From assembly GCF_019263805.1 (NCBI RefSeq), contig NZ_CP079195.1, forward strand, positions 933,501 to 997,500: a DNA stretch of 64,000 nucleotides, in the 5' to 3' direction. The DNA comes from Polaribacter sp. NJDZ03 (GTDB lineage Bacteria > Bacteroidota > Bacteroidia > Flavobacteriales > Flavobacteriaceae). The stretch's first letter is position 1. Every line of letters starts with the position of its first letter. Both the position numbers and the translations under genes were made by a program. Below the pieces are notes generated by a model, which worked only from the letters and a program-made list of their open reading frames with translations, was not told the DNA's origin and ran no database searches. Of the stretch, positions 45,021 to 58,426 are shown one piece after another.

Positions 45021-47099
45021 ATGCGTTTAAAGTATTTTTCTTTTTTAATTATTTTTATGATAAGTCTTAGCAGCATTTCTCAAGAAATGCAAGAAGGTTT
45101 TACTTATTTAGAAACAGGTAAATACCAAGAAGCAGAAGTATTTTTTAAAGAAATATTAAAAGAATATCCTACAAATAAAACAGCAAGACTTTGTTACGGA
45201 AGAGCAATTGGTTTAAACGGAAAGGCAACTGCAGCGGTATCTCTTTTTACAAATCTTTTAAAAGATTTCCCTACCGATTTTGAAGTAAAACTTAATTATG
45301 CAGAATCATTACTTTGGAGTAAAAATTATCCTGATGCAAAAATCTATTATCAAACATTACTAAAAGAAAACAATAAAAGCTTTGCTGCTTTATTAGGTTA
45401 CGCAAATACGTTATCTAATTTAAAAGAATTTGAAGCTGCTTTACTTAATGTAGACAAAGCTTTAGAAGTACTCCCAGGAAACCCAAATGCACTGGTTTCT
45501 AAAAAATACATGAGGTTAGGATTGGCTAATAAAAAGGTAACGGATCAAAAATATAAAGAAGCAGAAACAATTTTAAAAGAAAATTTTACTTCTTTCAAAG
45601 ACGATAAAGAAACATTACTAAACCTTGCTAATTTGTATTTAATTTCTAATCAAATAGAAAAAGCAAAAAGCACCTATGAAATTATAGGTAAAAAACCAGA
45701 AGATAAACTAACCTCTTTAAACGGAATTTCTTTAGCGTATCACCTAGATACTGATGATAAAACGGCATTAATTGTAAGTAAAACAGCACTAAAAAGCATT
45801 GATAAAAACACCTCTGAAACCTTAAAAAATCAAACAATAGAAAGATATATTCAAGCATTAATTTGGAATAAAAAATATACACCTGCCGAAACTGAAATTG
45901 ATAAATTATTAGACAACAATAAAAAACCAAAAAACTGGATGCTTTCATTAAGAGCTACTCTTAATATTTATAAAAGTGATTTTAATAAAAGTATAGATGA
46001 TTATAATTTAATATTAAAAAAAGATAGTACTTCTTTTGATGGTAATCTAGGAAAAGCAAATGCTTTAAAAGCCTCTGGTTATTATAATAATGCATACAAG
46101 AGTGCAGAAAATACGTTATCTTTTTATGAAAACCAGAAAGATGCATCTAATTTTATAAAACAATTAGATTTAAGTTTTACCCCTTTTGTAGAAACAAAAT
46201 TTTCTTATTCTTATGATAACGGAAATAACGAAGCAAACGCATACGATGTAAAAGCTGAAATTCCGTTTTCTACAAAGTTTAAAATATTAGCGAACTATAA
46301 TTACAGAACTACTCTTAATAATCAAATTGACTCATTAAAAGCAACTACCAATAATTTATTGTTAGGTATTTCTTATCAATTATTAAATAACGTAACCTTA
46401 AAAGGTAGTTTTGGTGTTACTTCTTCTGATTCAGAATCTAAAAAGTACAATCAATTATTAACAGATATTTCCGTTAATATAAAACCATTTAAGCTTCAAA
46501 GTTTAGATTTAGGTTACAAAAGAGATGTTCAGAATTTTAATGCCGCTTTATTAAATGATGAAATTGTACAAAATAACCTTATTTTAAATTACAGTTTAAA
46601 TACAAATTTTAACCTCGGTTGGTTTACGCAGTATTATTATACATGGCAAAGTGATGATAATGCTAGAAACCTCTTATTTACGTCTCTTTACTATAATATA
46701 TTTGCAAAACCTTCTATAAAAGCAGGTCTTAATTATCAAAACATTTCTTTTAAAGAATCTAAAGAAAATTATTTTAGTCCTAGTAAATTTAATGCAGTAG
46801 AAATTTTTGTTGATCTTATAAAAGATGAAGCTGCAGCTAAAGAAAAAGAATGGTTTTATGGATTAACTGCAGCCACTGGTTTGCAATATATAGAAAATGA
46901 TGAAGCTCAAAGCACTTATAGAGTTCAAGCGAAATTAGGATATAAATTTTCTGACCGTGCATTAATAAATATCTATGGGTTACAAAGTAATATTGCTTCT
47001 GCTGCTGCATCTGCAACAACCACAGCTAGTTTTACGTATACTGAGTTTGGATTACGCTTTAAATGGATCTTCTTAAAAAAACCTTTATACAAAAAATAA
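45021..47099 (+). CDS. TPR plus outer-membrane beta-barrel protein (YaiO/exporter-like)
   Basis: Outer-membrane protein of 692 residues: signal peptide MRLKYFSFLIIFMISLSSIS, tetratricopeptide repeats over about 20-375 (EGFTYLETGKYQEAEVFFKE, NYAESLLWSKNYPDAKIYYQ), then a C-terminal barrel (about 385-692) with alternating strands and a YaiO-like finish (YTEFGLRFKWIFLKKPLYKK). TPR-barrel proteins such as PgaA, BcsC and PelB export exopolysaccharides. Sequence-level identity to those is not claimed. Its place next to flippase, GT4, GT-C and GH5 genes supports a role as outer-membrane export channel of this cluster. A terminator hairpin starts at its stop codon. Confidence 0.8.
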   Translation: MRLKYFSFLIIFMISLSSISQEMQEGFTYLETGKYQEAEVFFKEILKEYPTNKTARLCYGRAIGLNGKATAAVSLFTNLLKDFPTDFEVKLNYAESLLWSKNYPDAKIYYQTLLKENNKSFAALLGYANTLSNLKEFEAALLNVDKALEVLPGNPNALVSKKYMRLGLANKKVTDQKYKEAETILKENFTSFKDDKETLLNLANLYLISNQIEKAKSTYEIIGKKPEDKLTSLNGISLAYHLDTDDKTALIVSKTALKSIDKNTSETLKNQTIERYIQALIWNKKYTPAETEIDKLLDNNKKPKNWMLSLRATLNIYKSDFNKSIDDYNLILKKDSTSFDGNLGKANALKASGYYNNAYKSAENTLSFYENQKDASNFIKQLDLSFTPFVETKFSYSYDNGNNEANAYDVKAEIPFSTKFKILANYNYRTTLNNQIDSLKATTNNLLLGISYQLLNNVTLKGSFGVTSSDSESKKYNQLLTDISVNIKPFKLQSLDLGYKRDVQNFNAALLNDEIVQNNLILNYSLNTNFNLGWFTQYYYTWQSDDNARNLLFTSLYYNIFAKPSIKAGLNYQNISFKESKENYFSPSKFNAVEIFVDLIKDEAAAKEKEWFYGLTAATGLQYIENDEAQSTYRVQAKLGYKFSDRALINIYGLQSNIASAAASATTTASFTYTEFGLRFKWIFLKKPLYKK

Positions 47100-47151: not shown

Positions 47152-48828
47152 CTAGTTGACGATAAAGGTTCCGGAATGTTGATTGTTTTTATCGTCAATC
47201 AGTCTGTACTTATAAACTCCTTTTTCTAACTGAGGAGCATTGTATTGTATTTTCTTTGAAGAAGAATTGGTATTAATTTTCTGAGCATCTACAATTCTAC
47301 CCATTAAATTATATACATTAATTTGAACATATTTAGCTACTTTAGGTAATTCTATTGTTGTAGAATTTGTAAAAGGATTTGGATAGTTTAATAATTTTTC
47401 ACTAATCTCTTCTGTAAAACTTTCCTCATTTAAATTATTGTTTAGAGTAAATGCTATCTTATTTATATCTAAACTAAAAGGCTTATAATATGTGTAATCA
47501 CCTATTACAGAAAACACTATTGTTTTAATACTTGAAACCGTAACCTTCTTCCCCGCATCATCTACAAAATCTAACAATGAAATGGTATATGTTTTCTCTG
47601 CTGAATTTGCCGGAACGGTATATCGTAATCTATGCTCCCATTCTCTATTTTCATTCGTCATAATAACGACTTCTACTGGTTCATTATTTTTAATATTGAA
47701 ATTTACAAAATTATACCCCTCAACACTTAAGCTTTCATTTCCTGGCAAAAGATGTCTAAATAAATTAATATTTCCTTTTACTTCTCCTATTACTTTTACG
47801 CTCCTATCTACTTCATAAATAGCATCATCTTCTTCTCTTTCAGATAAGTTTACTTCAAAATTAGAAACCGTTACATATTCTTTTAAGTAATCTAATCCCC
47901 ATGGACCATCTGCCACGTATAAAGCATCTTTTTGCTTAGAAGTAGTTGTTTCTAAATAAAAACCAATGTCAAATAAAACACCTGTTTCTATAGATAATAC
48001 TTCATTATAGTCTCCTGAAAGAGAAAAAACATTGGCAGCTTTAATATGTGTTGTTAATTCTGTTTCGGCAATATTACCAACAAAATTTACAGATTTTTCT
48101 TGAGTTCTATTTACTAAATTTAAGTTTAGAATGCCATTAACATAGTTACCAGATTTAACAAAAACATTTGGTAAAACACTTGCTTCTCTGGTGCTTTTTA
48201 ATCCATTTTTAGATGAATGTTGATCTATAATAAAATTTGCTGTCGATAAAATTTGAGAAAAAGAAGGTCCAAAAATTAAATAGTTATGATAATTACCTGT
48301 TGGATATTGGTCTACATTCCAAAAACTAAATAATTCATTTTGTTTTGTATCAACTCTAACGGAAAAACGTAATGTATATGTAATTTGACCAGAAACACTA
48401 CTTATTGTAGCTTTAATTACTTGATGTTCTTTTACAAGAATAGTACTAATACTATCTAAACGATCAGTATTTAAGCGATCATAAATAATTTTAGAATGAT
48501 CATAAACAACACCGTCTGATTTAGTTGCTATAATAGAAGAAACTTTATTTTTACCCTGATAATAACTTACGGAAAAAGTCTCTTTAAGATTAGAATTTTC
48601 AGAGAGCTCTTTCGGTTCAAAAACAAATGCCGTTTCGGTATGATTAATTCCTGTTTCTGGTAAATAATCTATTAAAGAATTTTTTATATTACTTTTAGAT
48701 AATTGATTCTTATTAAACCTTACAACTTCTACAGCACCAAATCTATTGGCTTTTTTTGTTTGAGCATTTAAGTTTATTGCTACTATAAAAGTAGAGATCA
48801 GCAATAATATTTTTATGATATATTTCAT
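47152..48828 (-). CDS. Hypothetical secreted protein with T9SS type A sorting domain
   Basis: Protein of 558 residues: signal peptide MKYIIKILLLISTFIVAINL ending NAQ (ATG 48828, preferred over one three codons upstream), a long beta-rich body without recognised catalytic motif, and a C-terminal sorting tail (NYPNPFTNSTTIELPKVAKY, VYNLMGRIVDAQ, GVYKYRLIDD) for export and surface attachment by type IX secretion. The body has segments such as YADGPWGLDYLKEYV-type aromatic clusters and RLRYTVPANSAEKTYTISLL, compatible with jelly-roll folds that bind or cleave glycans. It lies between the exopolysaccharide genes and the NO-signalling operon. Function unknown. Confidence 0.72.
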   Translation of the reverse strand: MKYIIKILLLISTFIVAINLNAQTKKANRFGAVEVVRFNKNQLSKSNIKNSLIDYLPETGINHTETAFVFEPKELSENSNLKETFSVSYYQGKNKVSSIIATKSDGVVYDHSKIIYDRLNTDRLDSISTILVKEHQVIKATISSVSGQITYTLRFSVRVDTKQNELFSFWNVDQYPTGNYHNYLIFGPSFSQILSTANFIIDQHSSKNGLKSTREASVLPNVFVKSGNYVNGILNLNLVNRTQEKSVNFVGNIAETELTTHIKAANVFSLSGDYNEVLSIETGVLFDIGFYLETTTSKQKDALYVADGPWGLDYLKEYVTVSNFEVNLSEREEDDAIYEVDRSVKVIGEVKGNINLFRHLLPGNESLSVEGYNFVNFNIKNNEPVEVVIMTNENREWEHRLRYTVPANSAEKTYTISLLDFVDDAGKKVTVSSIKTIVFSVIGDYTYYKPFSLDINKIAFTLNNNLNEESFTEEISEKLLNYPNPFTNSTTIELPKVAKYVQINVYNLMGRIVDAQKINTNSSSKKIQYNAPQLEKGVYKYRLIDDKNNQHSGTFIVN

Positions 48829-48926
48829 ATACCACAAAAGTAAGAACTAATTAAAGTGTAATTTTCGAATTTTAGTTACTTATACTTTAACTGTCGATGA
48901 GCTGTAAGATTTCATTAGATAAAGAA

Positions 48927-49637
48927 TTAAAGTAAATCTAACCTTTTCATTAATTCTGGTCGTTTAGACCTACTAACGGGAATAACATCTTTCTTTATAA
49001 GTACACTATTATCTTCAATATCTATAATTTTTTTGATATTGATAATGTAAGAACGATGTATTTTAAGGAATAAAGAGTCTGGTAATTTTTCTTCAATTTT
49101 TTTAAGTGTAGAATGCACTATATAATCTTTACTTTCTGTTTTTATTTTAATATAATCTCCTTTAGCTTCTATTAAATAAATACTTGGTAAATCTATTTTT
49201 ATCAATCTACGATCTATGTTTACATAAAAATCGTTTTCAATATCTATGGGTTTAGCACTTTCGTTCTTTACCTCATTTGTAGTAATATTTTTCCTTTCTG
49301 CTTTTTCAATTGCTTTTTTAAAACGAGGTAATTCTACTGGCTTCAATAAATAATCTACAATAAAATCGTACTCGAAAGCTTCAATAGCAAATTTAGGATC
49401 TGAAGTTGTTAAAATAATTTTTGGTGGATTTTTTAAACTTCTAATAAAATCTAAACCACTAAAATTAGGCATATGAATGTCTAAAAAAATTAAGTCTACT
49501 TTATTTTCATTTAAATATTTTATTGCTTCAATGGCACTAGGAAACTCTTCTAAAAGATTTAAAGAATCTATTTCATTGCATAGAGTTTTAATTATAACCC
49601 TTGCCATTTTTTCATCATCAATAATAATACAATTCAT
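48927..49637 (-). CDS. LytTR-family response regulator of the NO-sensor operon
   Basis: DNA-binding response regulator of 236 residues. The receiver domain has IIIDDEKMAR, phosphoacceptor Asp53 (LIFLDIHMPNFSG) and YLLKPVELP. The LytTR domain spans about 137-236 (YLIEAKGDYIKIKTESKDYI, then FLKIHRSYIINI and VIPVSRSKR). It is the last gene of a seven-gene unit, 5 bp after the Hpt gene, and so the likely transcriptional output of the relay. Candidate targets are the neighbouring surface/exopolysaccharide genes, though I found no matching direct repeats near them. Confidence 0.92.
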   Translation of the reverse strand: MNCIIIDDEKMARVIIKTLCNEIDSLNLLEEFPSAIEAIKYLNENKVDLIFLDIHMPNFSGLDFIRSLKNPPKIILTTSDPKFAIEAFEYDFIVDYLLKPVELPRFKKAIEKAERKNITTNEVKNESAKPIDIENDFYVNIDRRLIKIDLPSIYLIEAKGDYIKIKTESKDYIVHSTLKKIEEKLPDSLFLKIHRSYIINIKKIIDIEDNSVLIKKDVIPVSRSKRPELMKRLDLL

Positions 49638-49642
49638 AAAAC

Positions 49643-49960
49643 TTATATAGTTTCTATATACGCTGTAATTGCTTTTAATATCTTATCAAAATCTTCTTGC
49701 TTCTCTAAACTTAGCTCTCGAAGATTATGTTCAAACTCATTAGCAATTTCATAGCTCTTTTCGAGACCTAAAATACTAATTTTATGTTTAAGTTTATGAA
49801 CATTTTCTTCAATTTTTTTAAACTCTTTATTTTCTAAGCTATTATAGTAATCTTTCTTCTCTTCTGGAAACTCTGTTTTTATAACTGCTAGTAACTCTGC
49901 TTTTATAGATTCGTCTCCTCTTGCTAGTTGTTCTATATACTCTAAGTTTGGTTGTTCCAT
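49643..49960 (-). CDS. Histidine phosphotransfer (Hpt) domain protein
   Basis: Stand-alone Hpt protein of 105 residues, predicted all-helical. The phosphotransfer motif is VHKLKHKISILGL with His55 as the phosphate carrier. It sits 2 bp after the kinase gene and 5 bp before the LytTR regulator gene, the order expected for a multi-step relay: kinase, (receiver), Hpt, final regulator. The free receiver at 54676 and the receiver of the GT2 fusion at 35129 are possible intermediate or terminal partners. Confidence 0.85.
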   Translation of the reverse strand: MEQPNLEYIEQLARGDESIKAELLAVIKTEFPEEKKDYYNSLENKEFKKIEENVHKLKHKISILGLEKSYEIANEFEHNLRELSLEKQEDFDKILKAITAYIETI

Positions 49961-49962
49961 GT

Positions 49963-51006
49963 TTATTTTTTTATGCTAAAATAAAAAGTAGAACCAACTT
50001 TTGGCTCAGATTCTAAATAAATTTTACCACTATACGCTTCTACAATTTTTTTTACTATAGATAAACCTATTCCAGTTGACTTATAATCATCTTCTAATTT
50101 CTGAAATGCGATAAAAATTTTATCAAAATATTTTTTTTCTATTCCTTTACCGTTGTCTTTTATATAAAATTGCCAAGCTTCCTTTTCTTCTTTAAACCCA
50201 ATCTCAACAATAACTTCCTTTTTATCATTAAACTTAATGGCATTGTCTATTAAATGTTTAAACAATTGTTCTAGTCTAAATTTATCTCCCTTTACTTTTG
50301 GTAATTTTTCAGGAATAATAAAGCTTACATTTTCTGCTTTTTCCTTATCATCTAAAATATTTTGCACTAAAGAATCTAAATCGATATCATAAAGGTCTTT
50401 TTCATTTTTACCTATTGTAGAATATTGTAAGATACCTTTTACTAAAGTATCCATCTTTTCTACATTTTCTCTTATCAATTGTAAATTTTCTGTACCAGTA
50501 GTATCTAAAACACCAGAATAATCTTCTATAACCCAAGCTGTTAATGCTTCTATACTTTGTAGAGGAGATTTTAAATCATGAGAAACCATATGTGCATAAT
50601 CATTTAACTCTTGATTCTGTCGCTCTAAGTTTCTTAAAAGTTTATCTTTTTGTTGATTAATTTTAATAATTTCATTGGTTTGATTGTCTATAAAATCTAC
50701 CAATTTTAAAGAATCCATACTTTCTTTAGGTCGGTTTGTTGTTAGATCATAAACCTGTAATTTGTCTATTACACTTTCTAACTTTGAGATTACTTTTTTC
50801 TGAGAATTAGACTCTTCTCTTAATTGTTCATTAGCATTAAATAGTTCTTCTGAACTAATTTTTGTTGCTCTCTGTAGCATTAAAAATTGTTCATCAGAAG
50901 TATGGTAAGATCGATCTATAACCTCTAAGAATTTATCTAATTCGACATTAGATTGTAATTCTTTAGAGAGAAACTTTCTTATTTGTCTTTTTAATAAAGA
51001 ATTCAT
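49963..51006 (-). CDS. Soluble histidine kinase paired with the FIST protein
   Basis: Cytoplasmic kinase of 347 residues with no membrane segment and no PAS/GAF sensor. A helical N-terminus (1-135, with a coiled coil near 55-135) leads to HisKA with His143 in YAHMVSHDLKSPLQSIEAL and an HATPase domain (NAIKFNDKKEVIVEI, DNGKGIEKKYFDKIF, STGIGLSIVKKIVEAY). Lacking its own sensor, it should be driven by a partner; its ATG overlaps the stop of the FIST gene by 1 base. Family knowledge: FIST-domain NosP proteins regulate co-encoded kinases in response to nitric oxide. Confidence 0.88.
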   Translation of the reverse strand: MNSLLKRQIRKFLSKELQSNVELDKFLEVIDRSYHTSDEQFLMLQRATKISSEELFNANEQLREESNSQKKVISKLESVIDKLQVYDLTTNRPKESMDSLKLVDFIDNQTNEIIKINQQKDKLLRNLERQNQELNDYAHMVSHDLKSPLQSIEALTAWVIEDYSGVLDTTGTENLQLIRENVEKMDTLVKGILQYSTIGKNEKDLYDIDLDSLVQNILDDKEKAENVSFIIPEKLPKVKGDKFRLEQLFKHLIDNAIKFNDKKEVIVEIGFKEEKEAWQFYIKDNGKGIEKKYFDKIFIAFQKLEDDYKSTGIGLSIVKKIVEAYSGKIYLESEPKVGSTFYFSIKK

Positions 51007-52151
51007 TATTCGCTAATTAGAGTAACCGTCATGGTTTGGTTATGTAATTGGCAGCTACTTTCTCCAATAAATGGTGCAATTTCTCCATAAGAATATAGCC
51101 CTGTAATCGTTGTAGAATCACCAACAACTTCCATTACCTCTTCTACTTCTTCTTCTACTCTTTGGTCTAAAACCAATTTTCTACCAATACAACTTACTAA
51201 AATTGCTAATTCTGGTTTCTTCTTTCTAAACTCTAAAGCACTTACAGCCGCTTTTTCTGCTGCATTTACAATGTTATCTACATTAGTCATCATTAGTTGT
51301 ACTTTAGAATCCTCAAAAATATCTCCAGCTAAAATCACAGATTTCTGCTCTTCATCAATATTTAAGATTGTTCTAACAATTGTATTGTTACCATCTTCAG
51401 ACTTTACATTTAAAGGATATAACAATGCTGCACCAGGTAATTCTTTAGATTTTTCTCCTAAATATTTCTTATACAAATCTAAAGCGGGTAAATTATCTAA
51501 TTCATATAAAACATTTCCTTTAGATTTAGTTACCACTCTTTCTGGTCCAAAAGGAGTCCAACCACCATTAATAGAAAAAGTAACTTCTAACGTTTCTCCA
51601 TACAAACCAATAGCCACCATTTCTCCTGGTTTAGGGTTTTCATTATAAGAAGAAATTGTTTTTTCAAATCGTGCATCATCTCCACACAAAGCACCTGTAA
51701 TTAACAAGTTATTTTCTGTAGCAGCATTCATTCCTTTTGTTAATTGGCTTCCGTTTATAAAACTTCCTTCAGAGAGTACAAAAACATGCTTTAATCCCTC
51801 TTTTGGTAATTGACTTATTAATTCTTTACCAACGGCAAAGCTATCTATTTTAGCTTCTAAATCTTCATTTAAAATATTTGCAGTCTTAATTATAAAACTA
51901 CTTTTCTCAAATTCTATTGCTGTAATAGTTATACTTTCGTCATCAATAGATTCTGATGAAATATCTCCACAAGCAGAACCAAAAACAATATGACCGTCTT
52001 TAAATATGGTTCTAATTTCATCAAAAATAGTTTCATCTTCTAATAGAAACCTATTTCCAAAAACCAATACCAACGGTGCTTTTAAATTTATGTTCTCAGA
52101 TAAGTATTTCCAATCAGAATTTTTATGTTTTTTAAGTTGTACTGTTTTCAT
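51006..52151 (-). CDS. FIST-domain sensor protein (NosP-like candidate nitric oxide sensor)
   Basis: Cytoplasmic protein of 381 residues with both FIST modules. FIST_N (about 25-205) includes PLVLVFGNRFLLEDETIFDE, VFGSACGDISSES and FVLSEGSFINGSQLTKGM. FIST_C (about 215-365) includes NGGWTPFGPERVVTKSKGNV, LDLYKKYLG and TGLYSYGEIAPF. Some FIST proteins (NosP) bind heme and sense NO, and they are coded beside histidine kinases as here; others bind different small ligands. The heme ligand is not identifiable by eye. Its start lies 20 bases inside the end of the PAS-kinase gene, so translation is coupled. Confidence 0.85.
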   Translation of the reverse strand: MKTVQLKKHKNSDWKYLSENINLKAPLVLVFGNRFLLEDETIFDEIRTIFKDGHIVFGSACGDISSESIDDESITITAIEFEKSSFIIKTANILNEDLEAKIDSFAVGKELISQLPKEGLKHVFVLSEGSFINGSQLTKGMNAATENNLLITGALCGDDARFEKTISSYNENPKPGEMVAIGLYGETLEVTFSINGGWTPFGPERVVTKSKGNVLYELDNLPALDLYKKYLGEKSKELPGAALLYPLNVKSEDGNNTIVRTILNIDEEQKSVILAGDIFEDSKVQLMMTNVDNIVNAAEKAAVSALEFRKKKPELAILVSCIGRKLVLDQRVEEEVEEVMEVVGDSTTITGLYSYGEIAPFIGESSCQLHNQTMTVTLISE

Positions 52152-54135
52152 TTAATTCTTTTTTTATGGTGAAGTAAAAAGTAGTTCCTTTATTGGGTTC
52201 ACTTTCTAACCAAATTTTGCCTTCATGTAAAGCAATTATTTTCTTTACAATTGATAATCCTATTCCTGTAGAATCTTCTCTTTTATTTAAAGAAGTAAAA
52301 ACTTCAAAAATTTTGTCGTGATATTTTTTTTCAATACCAATACCATTATCTCTTATAGAAAACTGATGAAATGGTTCTTTATCTTCATAGTTTATCTCTA
52401 CAATTCCTACTTCTTTATCACAAAATTTAATAGCATTACTTATAAAATTTTGAAATAATTGTTGAAACTTCGTTTTATCTCCTTTTATAATAGGTAGGTT
52501 TTTAAGAACGTTTACAGAGATGTTTTCTGGAATAAATAAGATCTTTTTTAAATCACATAATGTATTATTTAAATCTACATCTTCATCTTCTTGTGTACTA
52601 GAACCGGCACTCGAGTACTCTAAAACATCAGAAATTAGTTTTTCCATAGTTTCTAATGTCGTTTCTACTAGTCCAAAGTTTTGCAACGTCATTTCATCAA
52701 ACTTCCCTTCATTGTCTGCTTTAATCCAAGAAACTAATGCGTCTATACTTCTAAGCGGAGATTTTAAATCATGAGAAACAATATGTGCATACTCGTGCAA
52801 ATGTTCGTTACTTTTTTCTAATTCTTTTAAAATTTGCTCTTTTTGTAATTCTAATTTTTTAAAATTTGTAATGTCTAAATTTAGGGCAATAGAGCCTATG
52901 TTTTCTCCATGCAAATTATAATTTGGTGCTGCACTTACAAGCCAGTACTTAATATCACCTTTTTTATTTTTTGTCTTAAATTCATAAGAAGTAGATTCTC
53001 CTTTAAGGCGTTTAACTTTTTGATCTTTTATAATATTAGACCCCGAGTTAAATGTAAAAATATCACCTCCTACTTTACCTATTAATTCTTCTTTAGCATA
53101 GCCAGACATTTCTAAAAAACTTTGGTTTACCATAGAAATTTTGTCTTCTATATTAATCTCTACCAACCCTAGGTTCATATTGGCTATAATATTGCTATAC
53201 TTTTCTTTTTCTACTTCTAAACTTATATTATATTTTTTTTCTAAAGTAATGTCTCTAAAAGTCCACAAATAGCCTTTTATTTTTCCTCCAATAAATATAG
53301 GAATATAATTTCTTTCTAGAATTATACCATCTACCATTTCTAGTTGTTCTCCAAAAATAGGTTCTCTTTTTGCTACTATTTCATCCATCCTTTCAACAAA
53401 AGACGATGATTCTTTAAATAATACTTTATTTTGTTCTGATGCCATTTTACAATCCATCCCCAATAAATCTTGAGGTGATGCATCTACTTTAAATAACTCG
53501 CAAAACTTTGTGTTCGACAATACTATTTTTCGATTTTCATCTTCTAAAATAATACCACTGTTTAGATTTAATACTAGTGCTGCTAATCTATTTTCTGACT
53601 CTATTAATAAATCTTCTGCTACTTTATCTTTTGTTATATCTCTTATAATACCTTGCGCAGCTATTGCTTTATTATTTTTATCATAAATAACAGTTGCATT
53701 TATTTGAATCCATTTTACTTCTTTGCTTTTACTGTAAACTCTTGCAGTATAAGCGTTAAAAAAACCTTTTTCGTATAATTCTTTAAAAGAATTAGAGGTA
53801 TATTCTATATCTTCTTCATAAATAATTTCAGTAACATTAAAGGTTTCCTTTTCTATATCATACCCAAAAAGATCCTTTGCAACTTCATTCATTTTTAAAA
53901 CATTACCAAACAAATCCATAACTAAATATGCATCATTAATGTTATCAAAAACTCCTTTTAAAGTGCTAGATTTCTCTTCTAAAAGTTCATTTAGCTTTAA
54001 GTTAGAACCTTTTAATTTTTCTGTAAGGTCATATAATTCTCTAGACTTATCTTCAAGAATTTTTTCTGCTGCTTTTCTAGCAGCTTTTTCACGCTTTACT
54101 GCTCGTTGTAGTATTTCTATTTGATTTTGACTCAT
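52132..54135 (-). CDS. Soluble PAS-domain histidine kinase paired with H-NOX
   Basis: Kinase of 667 residues, no membrane segment. N-terminal coiled coil (about 15-60); PAS domains at about 57-168, 180-298 and 312-424 (GVFDNINDAYLVMDLFGNVL; NLGLVEINIEDKISMVNQSF); HisKA with His455 in YAHIVSHDLKSPLRSIDAL; HATPase (NAIKFCDKEVGIVEI, DNGIGIEKKYHDKIFEVFTS, STGIGLSIVKKI). Its catalytic half is close in motif wording to the kinase at 49963, suggesting that both feed the same Hpt. Its start shares one base with the stop of the H-NOX gene and its end overlaps the FIST gene. Confidence 0.92.
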   Translation of the reverse strand: MSQNQIEILQRAVKREKAARKAAEKILEDKSRELYDLTEKLKGSNLKLNELLEEKSSTLKGVFDNINDAYLVMDLFGNVLKMNEVAKDLFGYDIEKETFNVTEIIYEEDIEYTSNSFKELYEKGFFNAYTARVYSKSKEVKWIQINATVIYDKNNKAIAAQGIIRDITKDKVAEDLLIESENRLAALVLNLNSGIILEDENRKIVLSNTKFCELFKVDASPQDLLGMDCKMASEQNKVLFKESSSFVERMDEIVAKREPIFGEQLEMVDGIILERNYIPIFIGGKIKGYLWTFRDITLEKKYNISLEVEKEKYSNIIANMNLGLVEINIEDKISMVNQSFLEMSGYAKEELIGKVGGDIFTFNSGSNIIKDQKVKRLKGESTSYEFKTKNKKGDIKYWLVSAAPNYNLHGENIGSIALNLDITNFKKLELQKEQILKELEKSNEHLHEYAHIVSHDLKSPLRSIDALVSWIKADNEGKFDEMTLQNFGLVETTLETMEKLISDVLEYSSAGSSTQEDEDVDLNNTLCDLKKILFIPENISVNVLKNLPIIKGDKTKFQQLFQNFISNAIKFCDKEVGIVEINYEDKEPFHQFSIRDNGIGIEKKYHDKIFEVFTSLNKREDSTGIGLSIVKKIIALHEGKIWLESEPNKGTTFYFTIKKELNENSTT

Positions 54136-54674
54136 TATTTTTTATTAACAATAAACCTTACCTCTGTACCATCTTCTTTAATTTTTTCTAAAACTATAGA
54201 GGCTTCTGTATTAAAGTGCTCAAAAGTTTTATTCATTAATCCTAATCCAAAATGGTGCATTGCTCTACTAGATTTGTACACCATTGTTAAAGAGTTTTCT
54301 GTTTTTTGTTCTACTATAAAAGTTGGTAGTTCTGCTTCTGGATAGATTTTTTGAACCTCCACATGTATATGGTTTTCAATGGAAGCTAACATTTCTATGG
54401 GGTCATTATAGGTTGCTAAAAGACCTGGATAGCTTCTTTCTATCATTCCAAAAAAGTGTTCTGCATATACTAATAGCAAATCATCTGTAGAAATACCTGT
54501 GTTATCACTAAGGTTTGTAACTAATTGTAACATCTCAGAAAAGCTATAAGTACCAACAGAAGTATAAATTCCTTCTGAAGCTAATTCTGACTGATAAATA
54601 ATTTTATCTACCATTTCTAACCCAAACTTTTCTTCAACTAAATCTAAAAACTCAGTAAAAACTATTCCTTTCAT
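54135..54674 (-). CDS. H-NOX heme nitric oxide sensor
   Basis: Soluble heme protein of 179 residues, full family length. Key positions: proximal heme ligand His104 in NHIHVEVQKIYPEAELP (seven before Tyr111, as in guanylate cyclase beta1), Pro117, and the heme-propionate motif YxSxR at Tyr133-Ser135-Arg137. At the position of the distal Tyr of oxygen-binding H-NOX proteins (five after the Arg) there is Phe142, so selective NO binding is predicted. It overlaps the PAS-kinase gene by one base; H-NOX proteins typically control the kinase encoded beside them. No GGDEF or methyl-accepting domain is attached. Confidence 0.93.
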   Translation of the reverse strand: MKGIVFTEFLDLVEEKFGLEMVDKIIYQSELASEGIYTSVGTYSFSEMLQLVTNLSDNTGISTDDLLLVYAEHFFGMIERSYPGLLATYNDPIEMLASIENHIHVEVQKIYPEAELPTFIVEQKTENSLTMVYKSSRAMHHFGLGLMNKTFEHFNTEASIVLEKIKEDGTEVRFIVNKK

Positions 54675-54675
54675 A

Positions 54676-55089
54676 TTAGTATTTTTTTAATTCATTCATA
54701 CTCCAATAAGATAATACTGTTTCAATTTTTTTAACATAATCATCATATTTTAGAGGTTTTAAAATATAACCAGAAACACCTATTTTATAACATTCTTCTA
54801 AATCTTTTTGATTATCTGAAGTAGTTAATATAACCGTAGGAATATGTTGTATGTCTTTATTATTTTTTAAGATTGATAGAAATTCTATACCACTCATTTT
54901 TGGCATGTTTAAATCTAATAAAATTAAATCAGGAAAATTACCTTTTTCTTGTAAAATATCTATTGCTTCTTCACCATTTTTAGCTTCTTGTATTGTATGC
55001 TCTAATTTTAACAATGAAAGAGTTCTCTTCATTTTCATAATTTCAATTAGATTATCTTCAATCAACAATATTTTTAAGTTCTTAGACAT
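54676..55089 (-). CDS. Stand-alone receiver (CheY-like) protein
   Basis: Single receiver domain of 137 residues: LLIEDNLIEIM, phosphoacceptor Asp59 in LILLDLNMPKMSG, conserved Thr (VILTTSDNQ) and Lys-Pro (YILKPLKYDDY). I start it at ATG 55089; the frame runs to 55119, but that extension crosses the -7 box at 55117-55124. It is the first gene of the NO-sensor operon, 1 bp before H-NOX. With no output domain it is either a relay intermediate to the Hpt or a phosphate sink. Confidence 0.9.
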   Translation of the reverse strand: MSKNLKILLIEDNLIEIMKMKRTLSLLKLEHTIQEAKNGEEAIDILQEKGNFPDLILLDLNMPKMSGIEFLSILKNNKDIQHIPTVILTTSDNQKDLEECYKIGVSGYILKPLKYDDYVKKIETVLSYWSMNELKKY

Positions 55090-55124: not shown

Positions 55125-55220
55125 AGGTAATTAAATAGACTAATTTATGAGTGGTTGGTCAAAAAGATTTAAGTGTAGATGAAATGCTAAAAAGTATAGA
55201 TAGACTTTTTGGAACTAAAA

Positions 55221-55270: not shown

Positions 55271-55939
55271 CTATTTTCTTACTGCTTTAACAATAGCTAA
55301 AGCTGCTCTCACATCTTTTTCTAATTTTGCATAATCTTCGTTCGCAATAATTTCTTTCGAAATTAATTTAGACCCCATTCCAACACAAGTTACACCTGCA
55401 TCAAACCAACCTTTTAAGTTTTCTTCTGTTGGTGAAACTCCACCTGTAGGCATTAAGCTGGTCCAAGGTTGAGGTCCTTTTACTCCTTTTACAAATTGTG
55501 GTCCATAAATATCACCAGGAAATAATTTTACTATTTCACACCCTAATTCTTCTGCTCTAGTAATTTCTGTTAAAGTACCACAACCAGGAGACCATAATAC
55601 TTTTTTACGGTTACAAGCAATTGCAATATCTTCTCTTAAAACAGGAGTTACAATAAAGTTTGCTCCTAATGCCATATATAATGAAGCTGCTCCTGCATCT
55701 GTAACAGAACCTACACCCATTATCATACCTGGTAATTCTGCAATAGCATATTTAGTTAACGCTCCAAAAACTTCGTGAGCGAAATCTCCACGTGCTGTAA
55801 ACTCCATTAAACGAGCGCCACCATCGTAACATGCTTTTAATACTTTTTTACTTAATTCTATATCGTTATGAAAAAATAAAGGAATCATTCCTGTTTCTTT
55901 CATTACTTGTGCTACTTCTAATCTTGAAAATTGTGCCAT
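55271..55939 (-). CDS. eda: KDPG aldolase (bifunctional 4-hydroxy-2-oxoglutarate aldolase)
   Basis: Class I aldolase of 222 residues cleaving 2-keto-3-deoxy-6-phosphogluconate to pyruvate and glyceraldehyde-3-phosphate. Motifs: LMEFTARGDFAHEVF (catalytic Glu strand), MGVGSVTDAGAASLYMALGA, PGCGTLTEI, the Schiff-base lysine in CEIVKLFPGD and MPTGGVSPTEENL in the phosphate loop. It is the last gene of the unit KDG kinase, phosphofructokinase, aldolase, with a terminator behind it. KDG from uronates (alginate, pectin or similar) is the expected source. Confidence 0.93.
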   Translation of the reverse strand: MAQFSRLEVAQVMKETGMIPLFFHNDIELSKKVLKACYDGGARLMEFTARGDFAHEVFGALTKYAIAELPGMIMGVGSVTDAGAASLYMALGANFIVTPVLREDIAIACNRKKVLWSPGCGTLTEITRAEELGCEIVKLFPGDIYGPQFVKGVKGPQPWTSLMPTGGVSPTEENLKGWFDAGVTCVGMGSKLISKEIIANEDYAKLEKDVRAALAIVKAVRK

Positions 55940-56063
55940 TTTATTTTATATTTTTAACTGTTTTTTTGTGTAAACTTTAATTTGTGTAACTATGAAATAT
56001 CTTATCCAAAAGTGACAAAAATTTTATTTTTTACTGGATACTGCAACTGGAAACTGCTACTTA

Positions 56064-57281
56064 TTAATTCCAGTTTAATATTTTTTTAAAATCGTATGCT
56101 TCTGGATTGGTAACATACTTTTTTGCATTTTCATAGTCCTTTTCTTTTAAGAAGAATAAGTTTTCTATGAATAATTGTGCCATATCAGAATTGATATCTA
56201 CTAACCTTGGTGGAATTTTACCATTTTCATCTTCAAAATCTTTTAGATATAAAGGTGAAATATCTCCATTAGAATTAGCACTTACAATACAACCTGTAGC
56301 ACCTTGATCAAATAGTTTTTTAACTCCAATACCCAATAATGTACATAAGGTTAAATCGAATGCTATAGGATTACAACATCTTAATTCATACCCTAATTCT
56401 ACTGGTCTAGACTTTATTTCTAATCCTATTTCTTTTAATTTAACTTGCAGTAAGTAATTAAATATATGAGATTTACTTACGTTTCCTAATTCTGGGTGTC
56501 CGTGCTCATCATAGGTGAAGTTAATACCTGAATTAATGATTTCTTCTTTTTCCATAAAGTGAAAAACACCTTCGCTTATTAAAGCGACACCGTATTCTAC
56601 ACCCATAATTTTACATTTTACAATAGAAGAAATAATCATATTGATTAACTTCTTAAATGTAATAGTAGTTTTATTAAACATTTCTGGAATAATTACCATC
56701 TGAAAATGACATGCAGATGCAATTCCGAAGGCCAAATGCCCCGCAGAACGTCCCATTGCAGACATTACAAACCAATTTTCACTAGTTCTTGCATCTTCAT
56801 AAACGGTATTTCCAATGCGTACACCTTCATCTTTTGCGGTATGAAAACCAAATGTTGGGTTTCTATCTGGCAAAGGTAAATCGTTATCTATTGTTTTTGG
56901 AACATGAATATGTCTAACATCTAATTCTTGCTCCTTTAAATATTTAGTTAATCTATTTGCTGTAGAAGCTGTGTCATCTCCACCAATAGTAACCAATAAT
57001 TTTACATTATTTTTCTTAAAAAAATCTACTTTAAAATCACTGTCTTTAGGTTTAAATCTACTCATTATAAGACTAGAACCACCTCTACTAAAAATACGAT
57101 CTGCACGATGAAAATCAAAAATCTCCAATTCAGGATTTTCTGAAAGCAATCCTTGATATCCATGATGGACACCAATTACCTCATAACCATCTTTCATAAA
57201 GGTTTTAGCAACAGTACTAATTACTGTATTAATTCCTGGTGCAGGACCGCCTCCACACATTATAGCTACAGATTTCTTCAT
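56064..57281 (-). CDS. 6-phosphofructokinase with pyrophosphate-type signatures
   Basis: PfkA-superfamily enzyme of 405 residues. N-terminal CGGGPAPGINTVIST, then GGDDTASTANRLTKYL and PKTIDNDLP. GGDD instead of GGDG, and Lys instead of Gly before TIDND, are the two residues that mark pyrophosphate-dependent enzymes, so I predict PPi:fructose-6-phosphate phosphotransferase, reversible, rather than ATP use. The active-site stretch MSAMGRSAGHLAFG follows. It lies between KDG kinase and KDPG aldolase, an unusual place for a glycolytic kinase; a reversible enzyme could run toward fructose-6-phosphate during growth on uronates. Confidence 0.88.
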   Translation of the reverse strand: MKKSVAIMCGGGPAPGINTVISTVAKTFMKDGYEVIGVHHGYQGLLSENPELEIFDFHRADRIFSRGGSSLIMSRFKPKDSDFKVDFFKKNNVKLLVTIGGDDTASTANRLTKYLKEQELDVRHIHVPKTIDNDLPLPDRNPTFGFHTAKDEGVRIGNTVYEDARTSENWFVMSAMGRSAGHLAFGIASACHFQMVIIPEMFNKTTITFKKLINMIISSIVKCKIMGVEYGVALISEGVFHFMEKEEIINSGINFTYDEHGHPELGNVSKSHIFNYLLQVKLKEIGLEIKSRPVELGYELRCCNPIAFDLTLCTLLGIGVKKLFDQGATGCIVSANSNGDISPLYLKDFEDENGKIPPRLVDINSDMAQLFIENLFFLKEKDYENAKKYVTNPEAYDFKKILNWN

Positions 57282-57328
57282 ATTTTATTGTTGATTTTAA
57301 AATTAGTATGTGTACAGTTATAAATTTA

Positions 57329-57366
57329 TTTAACTGTTAAATAGCCTAAACTACTTAACAGTTAAA
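57329..57366 (-). promoter_or_regulatory. Perfect 12 bp inverted repeat between KDG kinase and phosphofructokinase genes
   Basis: TTTAACTGTTAA (57329-57340) and TTAACAGTTAAA (57355-57366) form a perfect pair around 14 nt, 14 bp after the kinase stop. It could be a weak terminator, an mRNA processing hairpin or an operator; the sequence alone does not decide. Confidence 0.45.
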
Positions 57367-57379
57367 CAAAAATCTAGAT

Positions 57380-58426
57380 TTATCTAGCTACTCTTCCAGA
57401 TGCATCACCACCCATCAATTTATTTACTTCTGCAACTGTAACTAAGTTTGCATCACCTTTAATAGTGTGCTTTAAACAAGACGCAGCAACTGCAAAGTCT
57501 AATGCATTTTGATCGTTATCTGGGTATGTTAATAATCCGTAGATTAAACCTCCCATAAAAGAATCTCCACCACCTACTCTATCTACAATATCTGTAATTT
57601 GGTATTGACGTGTTTGTAACATTTCATTTCCATCATATAAAACTCCAGCCCATGTATTGTGAGACGCAGAAATAGAACCTCTTAAAGTAGTAATTACCTT
57701 TTTAGCTCTTGGAAATTTCTCCATCATTTGCTTACAAACAGATAAGAAAGCTTCTGCTTTTACGTCATGTCCTGCTGTTTGAACTGCAGCTCCATCAGGC
57801 TTAATTCCGAAATGCATTTCTGCATCTTCTTCATTTCCTAAAACTACATCACAGTAAGAAGTTAATTCTGTCATTATAGACTCTCTATGAGCATCATCAC
57901 AAAAATTCCATAATTTTGCACGGTAGTTTAAATCTGTAGAAATAGTAATTCCTTTTGCACTAGCTACTTTTAAAGCTTCTAAAGTTACATCTGCAGCACC
58001 TTGAGAAATTGCTGGGATAATACCTGTCCAATGAAACCATTCACATCCTTCAAAAACGGCATCCCAATCGATCATTCCAGATTCTACTTCTGCAATAGCA
58101 GAATGCGCTCTATCATAAACCACTTTAGAACCTCTAGATACAGCACCAGTTTCTAAGAAATAAATTCCTAAACGGTCTCCACCATAAACAATCTTATCTA
58201 CACCAACACCTCTTTTACGCATCTCCATCATTGCACACTCACCAATATCATTTTTTGGTAAACGGGTTACAAAATCTACATCAATTCCGTAGTTTGCTAA
58301 TGATACTGCTACATTAGATTCTCCACCACCATAAACAACATCAAAATTATTTGCTTGTGAAAATCTTAAAAATCCTTGAGGAGCTAATCTTAACATGATC
58401 TCTCCAAATGTTACTACTTTTGCCAT
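57380..58426 (-). CDS. kdgK: 2-keto-3-deoxygluconate kinase (PfkB family)
   Basis: Cytoplasmic sugar kinase of 348 residues phosphorylating KDG to KDPG. It opens with VVTFGEIMLRLAPQGFLRFS and YGGGESNVAVSLANYG, typical of KdgK. The PfkB signature 2 is DRVGGGDSFMGGLIYG with the catalytic Asp, preceded by VITTLRGS. Its product is the substrate of the aldolase two genes downstream. It is divergent from the LacI regulator; two palindromic operators and a -7 box on its strand lie in the shared upstream region, predicting repression until a sugar-acid inducer is present. Confidence 0.94.
   Translation of the reverse strand: MAKVVTFGEIMLRLAPQGFLRFSQANNFDVVYGGGESNVAVSLANYGIDVDFVTRLPKNDIGECAMMEMRKRGVGVDKIVYGGDRLGIYFLETGAVSRGSKVVYDRAHSAIAEVESGMIDWDAVFEGCEWFHWTGIIPAISQGAADVTLEALKVASAKGITISTDLNYRAKLWNFCDDAHRESIMTELTSYCDVVLGNEEDAEMHFGIKPDGAAVQTAGHDVKAEAFLSVCKQMMEKFPRAKKVITTLRGSISASHNTWAGVLYDGNEMLQTRQYQITDIVDRVGGGDSFMGGLIYGLLTYPDNDQNALDFAVAASCLKHTIKGDANLVTVAEVNKLMGGDASGRVAR

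Follow-up and report, generated by a model that had tools for sequence, protein, structure and literature searches.

Within the window (the whole analysed stretch of 64,000 nucleotides from Polaribacter sp. NJDZ03), seven genes were found on the minus strand between positions 55089 and 48927, in the order REC, H-NOX, PAS kinase, FIST, sensorless kinase, Hpt and LytTR. The ORF list and the Pfam domains, all of which scored over their curated cut-offs, bear out the gene order claimed in the initial annotation. The features of the locus are as follows.

55171..55200, minus strand: LytTR-type box, predicted regulator site (direct repeat 81 bp 5' of the REC start codon)
54676..55089, minus strand: REC, stand-alone receiver (PF00072, E 3e-24)
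54135..54674, minus strand: H-NOX (PF07700, 137 bits against a cut-off of 25.5)
52132..54135, minus strand: HK1, three-PAS histidine kinase (PAS, HisKA, HATPase_c)
51006..52151, minus strand: FIST-FIST_C protein (PF08495, E 2e-39; PF10442, E 1e-34)
49963..51006, minus strand: HK2, histidine kinase without a recognised sensor domain (HisKA and HATPase only)
49643..49960, minus strand: Hpt phosphotransfer protein (PF01627, 29.8 bits against a cut-off of 24.6)
48927..49637, minus strand: REC-LytTR response regulator (PF00072 and PF04397)
47152..48837, minus strand: gene whose product carries a type IX secretion sorting domain (PF18962; start codon uncertain)

The REC ORF opens at a TTG codon (55119), and its first ATG (55089) was adopted here as the start. 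The tight spacing that had been reported was likewise found, with gaps of 1 bp (REC/H-NOX), 2 bp (HK2/Hpt) and 5 bp (Hpt/LytTR), and with three overlaps, of 1 bp (H-NOX/HK1), 20 bp (HK1/FIST) and 1 bp (FIST/HK2). Two features were added to the initial annotation, namely the direct repeat preceding REC and, 3' of LytTR, a possible target gene.

Gene content supports the presence of two unrelated sensor families, each beside its own kinase. The H-NOX protein was shown to contain the previously noted His104 and YxSxR motif (Y133, S135 and R137), and these residues are conserved among 206 distinct family rows, including that of the window: His104 in 205, Y133 and S135 in all 206, and R137 in 200, with replacement by Lys in five rows and by Asp in one. 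The window H-NOX shares 83% identity (tblastn) with its counterpart in Kordia algicida OT-1 (L178), where all seven genes are present, and matches the solved H-NOX of PDB entries 6bdd/6bde (E 1.5e-97), the species given for 6bdd being Kordia algicida.

The description of the FIST protein as a NosP-like heme sensor held in part. Both FIST domains were recovered and the gene adjoins that of a sensorless kinase, as in NosP-type arrangements; against the NosP model NF041558, the protein scored 52 bits, compared with an NCBI equivalog cut-off of 450, so that 'NosP-like' is a domain-level label and NO sensing by FIST only a guess. A search for the heme ligand by conservation returned no discriminating FIST residue; His370 is a general FIST mark, present in 24 of 24 solo FISTs and absent in 5 of the 78 operonic FISTs. 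The structure model of FIST was poor (mean pLDDT 62), and no PDB relatives were found by sequence or profile at E 1 or less. All 20 solo loci listed carry a co-directional kinase gene 3' of the FIST gene or FIST array.

Among 397 genomes, copper nitrite reductase (TIGR02376 over cut-off) was found in 72, and the genome of the window has one (C1:540284). Its occurrence showed no association with H-NOX (21/146 genomes with versus 51/251 without), with FIST (21/116 versus 51/281) or with the two together, leaving a link to the cell's own denitrification or NO production unsupported.

The list of phosphorelay parts is complete, comprising kinases, a stand-alone REC, Hpt and a REC output domain, and the phospho-acceptors are intact in every distinct row with a letter at the respective position (REC Asp59, with Lys111, in 200/200; Hpt His55 in 192/192; REC-LytTR Asp53 in 190/190). 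The phospho-histidines of the kinases are similarly conserved, with HK1 His455 in 202 of 203 and HK2 His143 in 121 of 122 distinct rows, the remaining row being a gap in each case. One common Hpt and a LytTR output within a single conserved operon, as had been proposed, are supported. Conversely, the suggested direct transfer from either kinase to Hpt is not expected, since Pfam identified no receiver domain in HK1 or HK2; the free REC is the natural first acceptor, and we infer a His-Asp-His-Asp relay through it, phosphotransfer being predicted from sequence. HK1 is the presumed partner of H-NOX, and HK2 that of FIST. The core consensus sequences of the two kinases are 66% identical over 230 positions, with an almost identical phospho-His helix. 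Among 15 own-genome matches to HK2 (HK2 itself included), the nearest kinases were C1:596664 (42%, 224 bits) and HK1 (47%, 214 bits), followed by a match of 33% and 106 bits.

To assess conservation across the family, 150 H-NOX rows were considered, one being the window's own; 140 were taken, and nine short, partial or second rows were excluded. At one locus (L133) no H-NOX ORF was recognised, and 139 loci were therefore counted, all from the Flavobacteriaceae, the family of the window. From 189 matches to the H-NOX of the window, the 80 best formed a second set. As 14 of these 80 loci duplicate a family-set locus, leaving 66 further distinct loci, counts pooled over the two sets include some genomes twice, and distinct-locus counts are also given.

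All seven genes were present in 69 of the 139 family-set loci, showing that the arrangement is not a product of chance; conservation of the order in related genomes, a check set beforehand, was thereby passed. A stricter rule on order and gaps retained a seven-gene operon in 66/140 family-set loci. For each of the five junctions 3' of H-NOX, between 54 and all 66 of these loci stayed within 10 bp. In the best-match set, all seven genes occurred in 51/80 loci (44/66 after removal of duplicates), and three loci were without Hpt. LytTR and Hpt were encoded in 126 and 131 of the 139 family-set loci, respectively. A relay lacking H-NOX occurs as well, as at L307-L309. Eight of the 77 loci with FIST were incomplete, five being without LytTR, one without Hpt and LytTR, one without the second kinase, Hpt and LytTR, and one without REC.

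FIST was absent downstream of H-NOX in 62/139 loci, 54 of which retain the other five genes; a few of these 54 carry extra genes, and the strict rule yields 48/140. The extra genes were a second LytTR (L045, L048 and L071), a second Hpt-LytTR (L051), an added receiver (L166) and a second kinase (L171). A quick tree was built, without bootstrap, from the window and 123 loci encoding REC, kinase, Hpt and LytTR; subject to a long-branch warning, it indicated at least 24 changes of state of the FIST-HK2 cassette. H-NOX is thus the core input, and the FIST-kinase pair a removable accessory cassette. The parts are co-inherited: FIST was found in 93/146 genomes with H-NOX versus 23/251 without (the genomes not being independent), HK2 and FIST distances track those of the relay genes, and FIST distances correlated with H-NOX distances at 0.82 over 65 loci excluding divergent FISTs (0.33 over all 69).

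The possibility that the two kinase genes, being similar, recombined and so lost the cassette was examined at 11 diagnostic columns and found no support. In 78 rows lacking FIST, the kinases had HK1 letters at 602 of the 674 cells that could be assigned and HK2 letters at the other 72 (10.7%), compared with HK2 letters in 31/1121 for the HK1 of seven-gene loci; the excess was mostly confined to one or two columns, with no run at the 3' end.

The box upstream of REC reads TCTATACTT-N12-TCTACACTT, with a 21-bp period, and is the only match in the window with two or fewer mismatches. Its matrix score was 25.8, compared with 10.1 for the next-best non-overlapping site, and it is the likely site at which LytTR binds its own operon. 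A repeat with up to three mismatches was found upstream of REC in 113/213 loci, with a spacer of exactly 12 in 107 of the 113, versus 2/213 in shuffled sequences; distinct loci alone gave 103/199, with a spacer of 12 in 97. The first matrix was trained on 107 of the same loci later counted with it. Cross-trained matrices, applied to the family set only at the threshold of 12, detected the repeat in 65/76 and 50/58 loci (shuffles, 0), with no match of 12 or more in 19/134 loci, about one in seven. The REC-upstream repeat is thus a new feature of most loci.

The first matrix is not perfectly specific. Across 2260 kb it gave 292 matches scoring at least 12, comprising 148 upstream of REC, 135 in other intergenic positions (many just 3' of LytTR, some unexplained) and 9 inside ORFs. 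A whole-genome scan of six genomes, four of them chosen for high-scoring loci, placed 9 of 11 sites within ~4 kb of an H-NOX gene, compared with none for the reversed-pattern control. In the genome of the window, the core pattern had one exact match, at the operon, and 10 matches with two mismatches (reversed pattern, 2), some of which could be real. A longer pattern returned the operon and one further site with three mismatches, apparently inside the kinase frame C1:1237382; this site was taken as a chance match. TAnnTTTG, a Bacteroidota-type promoter motif, occurred upstream of REC in 34/214 loci versus 15.6 by shuffling, which is suggestive only.

Two genomes of the window's genus (G320 and G692) carry scattered parts of the system. 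In these, the box was found before a relocated FIST-kinase pair (scores of 26.4 and 29.0, respectively), tying the pair to the circuit, and before a REC-kinase-Hpt-LytTR module (16.8 and 19.5); it was weak before REC-H-NOX-kinase (9.9 and 9.3, below the threshold of 12). The two genomes are close kin and therefore represent one event at most.

A box was often also present between LytTR and the next gene, namely in 62/119 distinct loci where that gene is co-directional, compared with 6/53 where it is convergent. This difference was seen for gaps below 150 bp (20/43 versus 0/28), of 150-400 bp (20/35 versus 1/10) and for longer gaps (22/41 versus 5/15). Compared with members of the downstream-gene family that occurs most often (L172, L175, L192 and others), the 47152..48837 product showed 51-62% identity. 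The corresponding gap in the window held no full box (best score -0.3). The downstream type IX-secretion gene is accordingly a likely target in relatives and an uncertain one in the window.

Taken together, these observations are best explained, with a probability of about 0.6, by a split four-step, autoregulated relay with two inputs, H-NOX and an accessory FIST, and a LytTR output. NO binding to the H-NOX heme would modulate the adjoining PAS kinase HK1, and, where the cassette is present, FIST would modulate the sensorless HK2 on binding a further signal, which may be NO or heme. Both kinases, with nearly the same phospho-acceptor helix, would phosphorylate the one stand-alone REC, from whose Asp phosphate would pass to the Hpt His and on to the LytTR Asp. 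Phosphorylated LytTR may then bind the pair of direct repeats (21-bp period) in front of REC and so control its own operon, whichever the sign of this regulation, and in many relatives also the adjacent gene, most often that of a type IX-secreted protein.

The odds are about even that the FIST ligand is something other than NO, such as heme itself, an amino acid or a metabolite, in which case the relay would join NO to an unrelated signal. This departs from the two-input relay in the FIST ligand only, and confidence in the two overlaps. It is favoured by the low NosP score, by the many loci that retain H-NOX without FIST, as expected for an optional extra input, by the missing nitrite reductase association, and by the link of FIST to heme besides NO in V. 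cholerae CdpA, as given in the accessible text of PMC8846402. Against it, FIST beside a sensorless kinase is the arrangement of NosP/NosK pairs (accessible text of PMC12570481), and FIST is far commoner with H-NOX than expected, in the non-independent genome counts given above. A more ambitious version, a gas-signalling system shared across the family in marine flavobacteria, is tentative at best: two unrelated heme sensors of differing NO affinities, H-NOX and FIST, would gate one relay through twin kinases, LytTR would act almost only on its own operon and the neighbouring secreted-protein gene, and NO would operate a self-sustaining surface-protein switch replacing c-di-GMP, its range or logic tuned by a FIST-kinase plug-in gained and lost at one fixed slot.

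Two insulated pathways sharing one operon, with HK1 signalling to REC-Hpt-LytTR, HK2 to another regulator and co-transcription as their sole link, appear improbable. The relay genes occur without FIST in 54/139 loci, and so do not need the cassette, and FIST-HK2 pairs stand without an adjoining regulator in L252 and L267; yet the phospho-acceptor helices of HK1 and HK2 are near-identical (only one further own-genome kinase being equally close), the relocated pair in the two close genomes bears the same LytTR box, and the relay-gene distances are mirrored by those of HK2 and FIST. Less probable still is that REC is the main output, as a CheY-like effector, with Hpt-LytTR serving as phosphate sink or brake. 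Some loci (L168 and L170) do carry REC-H-NOX-kinase without Hpt and LytTR nearby, and a Legionella H-NOX is described, in the accessible part of that literature, as having only a kinase and a CheY-like regulator encoded alongside it; the near-constant presence of LytTR and Hpt and a conserved promoter element that is a LytTR-type repeat argue against REC as the main output.

In many marine flavobacteria, H-NOX and a removable FIST-kinase pair thus appear to feed one phosphate relay, which is likely to regulate the operon itself and, in many cases, an adjacent secreted-protein gene as well. The structurally solved Kordia algicida H-NOX thereby gains a full candidate pathway, including a candidate transcriptional output with a defined promoter element, replacing c-di-GMP. 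Relatives with the cassette, without it or with it elsewhere constitute a natural experiment, which, together with the promoter element, allows direct reporter tests of why one relay should carry two NO-type sensors.

Several described systems resemble parts of this one. In the Spo0F-Spo0B-Spo0A relay, several kinases feed one stand-alone receiver, a phosphotransferase and a DNA-binding regulator; here, Hpt and LytTR replace Spo0B and Spo0A, and the genes are all in one operon. LuxU is an Hpt protein. In the NosP-VpsS-LuxU pathway of Vibrio cholerae, a NosP-type sensor acts on a sensorless kinase that passes phosphate to LuxU (accessible text of PMC6769237); VpsS is a hybrid kinase, whereas the present operon encodes a separate receiver protein and a LytTR output. 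NosP-NahK and NosP-NosK likewise have a FIST protein encoded beside a kinase without a sensor domain (accessible text of PMC12570481), whereas the present FIST is far under the NCBI NosP cut-off and sits inside an H-NOX operon without an HD-GYP or EAL output gene.

The H-NOX/HnoK networks of Shewanella and Vibrio share an H-NOX with a histidine kinase and multi-step phosphotransfer, and their outputs, as described in the accessible portions of PMC8738867 and PMC8846402, are mainly c-di-GMP enzymes or quorum sensing, compared with LytTR here. In Legionella, NosP and H-NOX lie in separate operons (accessible text of PMC11237717), unlike the present operon, which combines H-NOX and FIST with REC, Hpt and LytTR. 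The initial annotation knew of no matching system; no description of the whole operon was found in the literature searched, and its component parts are familiar, FIST genes near H-NOX genes being mentioned in the accessible text of PMC8738867 and the title of Nisbett 2019 stating that H-NOX and NosP converge in a single Shewanella oneidensis network. Finally, in LytTR Regulatory Systems a pair of 9-bp direct repeats, in most cases separated by 12 bp, precedes the system's own promoter; these systems consist of a regulator and a membrane inhibitor protein and are described as distinct from two-component systems (accessible text of PMC6193735). The present operon likewise has two direct repeats 12 bp apart upstream, at which autoregulatory LytTR binding is predicted, and its repeat (about CATTCRTCKACACTTAA) differs from theirs.

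ORF calling and a domain scan of the window placed seven minus-strand genes between 55089 and 48927, whose junctions comprise gaps of 1, 2 and 5 bp and overlaps of 1, 20 and 1 bp. The operon and the features associated with it are as follows.

First gene, minus strand: REC, a stand-alone receiver
Second gene, minus strand: H-NOX protein
Third gene, minus strand: HK1, a kinase with three PAS domains
Fourth gene, minus strand: FIST-FIST_C protein
Fifth gene, minus strand: HK2, a kinase in which no sensor domain was recognised
Sixth gene, minus strand: Hpt protein
Seventh gene, minus strand: REC-LytTR regulator
55171-55200: LytTR-type direct repeat (the box) with an exact core, lying 81 bp ahead of the start codon of REC
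47152-48837: type IX neighbour

The nearest named relatives of the window H-NOX and FIST were mostly derived from Polaribacter. Upstream of the operon (55271-58426), genes for a KDPG aldolase and a sugar kinase (the latter judged by sequence) were observed, and the aldolase gene adjoins the operon in several Polaribacter loci (L175, L180, L189, L210 and L247).

A draw of 397 Flavobacteriaceae genomes contained 146 with H-NOX and 116 with FIST; 93 genomes carried both, 53 H-NOX only, 23 FIST only and 228 neither (odds ratio 17, the genomes being related and not independent). Among 150 H-NOX rows, 140 were fetched as loci and the H-NOX ORF was recognised in 139, with FIST downstream of H-NOX in 77. 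All seven genes were found in 69 of these 139 loci, representing 48 genera, while REC, H-NOX, kinase, Hpt and LytTR without FIST (a few with extra genes) were found in 54, representing 45 genera; three genera exhibited both arrangements, and the remaining variants amounted to 16 loci. Under a strict rule (order kept, gaps of ≤300 bp and no unlabelled ORF between genes), 66 of 140 loci were seven-gene and 48 five-gene. A second set, consisting of the 80 highest-ranking among 189 matches to the window H-NOX and hence skewed to close kin, contained 51 seven-gene loci (including Polaribacter, Winogradskyella, Tenacibaculum, Kordia, Lacinutrix, Algibacter and Olleya) and 22 five-gene loci; removal of 14 repeats of family-draw loci left 66, i.e. 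44 seven-gene and 15 five-gene. Rows and loci remaining after this removal are referred to as distinct. Among 395 genomes drawn from the phylum, 27 carried H-NOX, 12 of which lie outside the family. FIST was linked by position to H-NOX in one of these 12 (G544, with the full seven genes, L299), based on 6 to 8 kb viewed for six genomes and ~1.5 kb on each side plus FIST positions for the other six, where draft contigs can conceal linkage.

The variable part of the operon is the FIST-HK2 pair, which was located between HK1 and Hpt in all 66 strict seven-gene loci. On a quick tree built from REC, H-NOX, Hpt and LytTR of 124 rows, presence of this cassette switched at least 24 times, 11 of which were forced by starred branches; shuffled labels required ~40 switches, and none of 500 shuffles was as low as the observed value. 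HK2 distances were shown to track those of REC, H-NOX, Hpt and LytTR (0.75 to 0.83, 69 loci), while FIST distances tracked H-NOX less closely (0.33, or 0.82 over 65 loci once FISTs without His370 were dropped). Based on these switches and correlations, we read the cassette as old, lost many times and partly replaced, on a tree that is blind to gain versus loss. Chimeric kinases were not found in FIST-less loci. A single locus (L032) displayed a swapped order, with FIST before H-NOX, followed by a 1156-residue kinase. Some family members carry as many as four FIST genes in tandem (L270, G225:C68, G069:C15 and G261:C7), adjoining a kinase in the single locus inspected. FIST-kinase pairs of another kind, in which the kinase has ~580 residues, were also observed (L253-L265).

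Since the domain scan revealed no receiver domain in HK1 or HK2, phosphate should pass via REC, Hpt and LytTR, and the route would run from kinase His to REC Asp, Hpt His and LytTR Asp. REC Asp59, Hpt His55 and LytTR Asp53 were retained in every distinct row (200/200, 192/192 and 190/190, respectively), as were HK1 His455 in 202 of 203 and HK2 His143 in 121 of 122, the exception being a gap in each case. The core consensus sequences of HK1 and HK2 are 66% identical over 230 positions (47% between the window's own pair), with a nearly identical phospho-His helix. Among 15 own-genome matches to HK2 (itself included), the only close ones were HK1 and a kinase at C1:596664 (position in the window's genome), the next exhibiting 33% identity. 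Given the alike cores and the single other close kinase, a REC shared by both kinases is the favoured inference. The same genome harbours another REC-Hpt-LytTR set that lacks an intervening kinase (L307 5736-7200, C1:3343235-3344699), whose Hpt and LytTR are 44% and 63% identical to those of the operon; the C1:596664 kinase could be its partner. A chassis of REC, multi-PAS kinase, Hpt and LytTR without any H-NOX (L308 1231-5187 and L309 1936-5869) suggests that sensors are added onto the relay as a general platform.

The core pattern of the box, TCTAYACTT-N12-TCTAYACTT (spacer allowed 8 to 16), was found with ≤3 mismatches in 113 of 213 loci having enough DNA upstream of REC, 107 of them with a spacer of 12, compared with two of 213 shuffled upstream sequences; among distinct loci, the core was present in 103 of 199, with a spacer of 12 in 97. 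The full repeat unit approximates CATTCRTCKACACTTAA, in two copies 21 bp apart. In other bacteria, the direct repeats reported to be bound by LytTR regulators are 9 bp long, mostly separated by 12 bp and often located upstream of the regulator's own operon (PMC6193735). With a 39-position matrix (threshold score 12), the box was recognised in 117 of the 127 loci that have FIST and in 72 of the 86 that lack it (110/120 and 65/79 without repeats), and in none of 213 shuffles. Matrices trained on family-draw FIST-less loci only, or on FIST loci only, recovered it in 65 of 76 FIST loci and 50 of 58 FIST-less loci, respectively, with no shuffles detected. Specificity is imperfect: over 2260 kb of loci, 148 matches lay upstream of REC, 135 were otherwise intergenic and nine fell inside ORFs. 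The exact core occurs once in the 4.08-Mb own genome, at the window site alone. A longer pattern yielded 11 sites in six whole genomes, four of which were chosen for strong sites; nine of the 11 sites lay within ~4 kb of the H-NOX gene, and a reversed control yielded none. The LytTR regulon looks mainly local. Extra intergenic matrix matches elsewhere than immediately ahead of REC or behind LytTR (L055 6992, L081 7035, L138 6905 and others) may indicate that the regulator has a few additional local targets.

In G320 and G692, two genomes of the window's genus, the operon parts occupy three places: REC, H-NOX and a short kinase (L040, L305); FIST-HK2 by itself (L252, L306); and a REC, PAS kinase, Hpt and LytTR module (L308, L309). 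The box precedes the relocated FIST (scores of 26.4 and 29.0) and the third module (16.8 and 19.5), and is weak before REC-H-NOX (9.9 and 9.3, under threshold). It was absent from the paralogous L307 set (best -9.9) and from two other HK2-kind FIST-kinase pairs (best in locus: L266 -4.2, L267 2.5). The cassette thus retained its promoter mark after moving, which serves as a natural test of its membership in the circuit and counts as one event in these close kin. The scanned FIST pairs with a ~580-residue kinase (L253, L254, L256-L260) also lacked the box.

The interval from LytTR (or Hpt) to the next gene of ≥150 residues contained a box in 76 of 185 loci, i.e. 69 of 127 with a co-directional and seven of 58 with a convergent next gene. 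Without repeats, these proportions were 62/119 versus 6/53 (p 2e-7, kinship not corrected for). The difference persisted in each class of gap length: for distinct loci, co-directional versus convergent counts were 20/43 and 0/28 for gaps of <150 bp, 20/35 and 1/10 for gaps of 150-400 bp, and 22/41 and 5/15 for longer gaps. The commonest neighbour family (66 of 185 loci, 60 without repeats; median 863 residues) has, in the four members scanned, a sorting domain for type IX secretion together with DUF6923 or DUF4114, and is preceded by the box in 35 of 60 distinct loci, although the full box was not found before the window's type IX neighbour (best -0.3). A small family, whose one scanned member is a CAP-domain protein, exhibited the box in 12 of 18 distinct loci. 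The window also encodes a TPR protein of 692 residues (45021-47099), and in 39 of 185 loci the gene convergent with the operon belongs to a family of median length 686 residues; the two may be orthologues, an example of the family looking alike by eye.

The FIST protein, considered NosP-like in the initial annotation, scored far under the NosP cut-off, and the one His that is well conserved in it marks FIST proteins in general; it is a putative heme or NO binder. Neither H-NOX nor FIST was associated with copper nitrite reductase in the family genomes. H-NOX/kinase pairs, FIST/kinase pairs and their convergence in one network have already been described, and FIST genes have been reported to neighbour the H-NOX genes of one group (PMC8738867). 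A search of open-access literature turned up no account of the seven-gene operon or of its LytTR output, promoter repeat or modular loss.

The top PDB matches of the window H-NOX were 6bdd (E 1.5e-97) and 6bde (E 5.6e-97). Hespen 2018 is reportedly the structure paper for 6bdd, with a title concerning hinge residue Ala71; among 206 distinct family rows, position 71 is occupied by Ala in 124, by Gly in 74 and by Ser in eight. The protein in 6bdd is the Kordia algicida H-NOX, according to a further report (PMC7356049). The molecule name in both PDB entries is that of an aldolase, presumably a mislabel.
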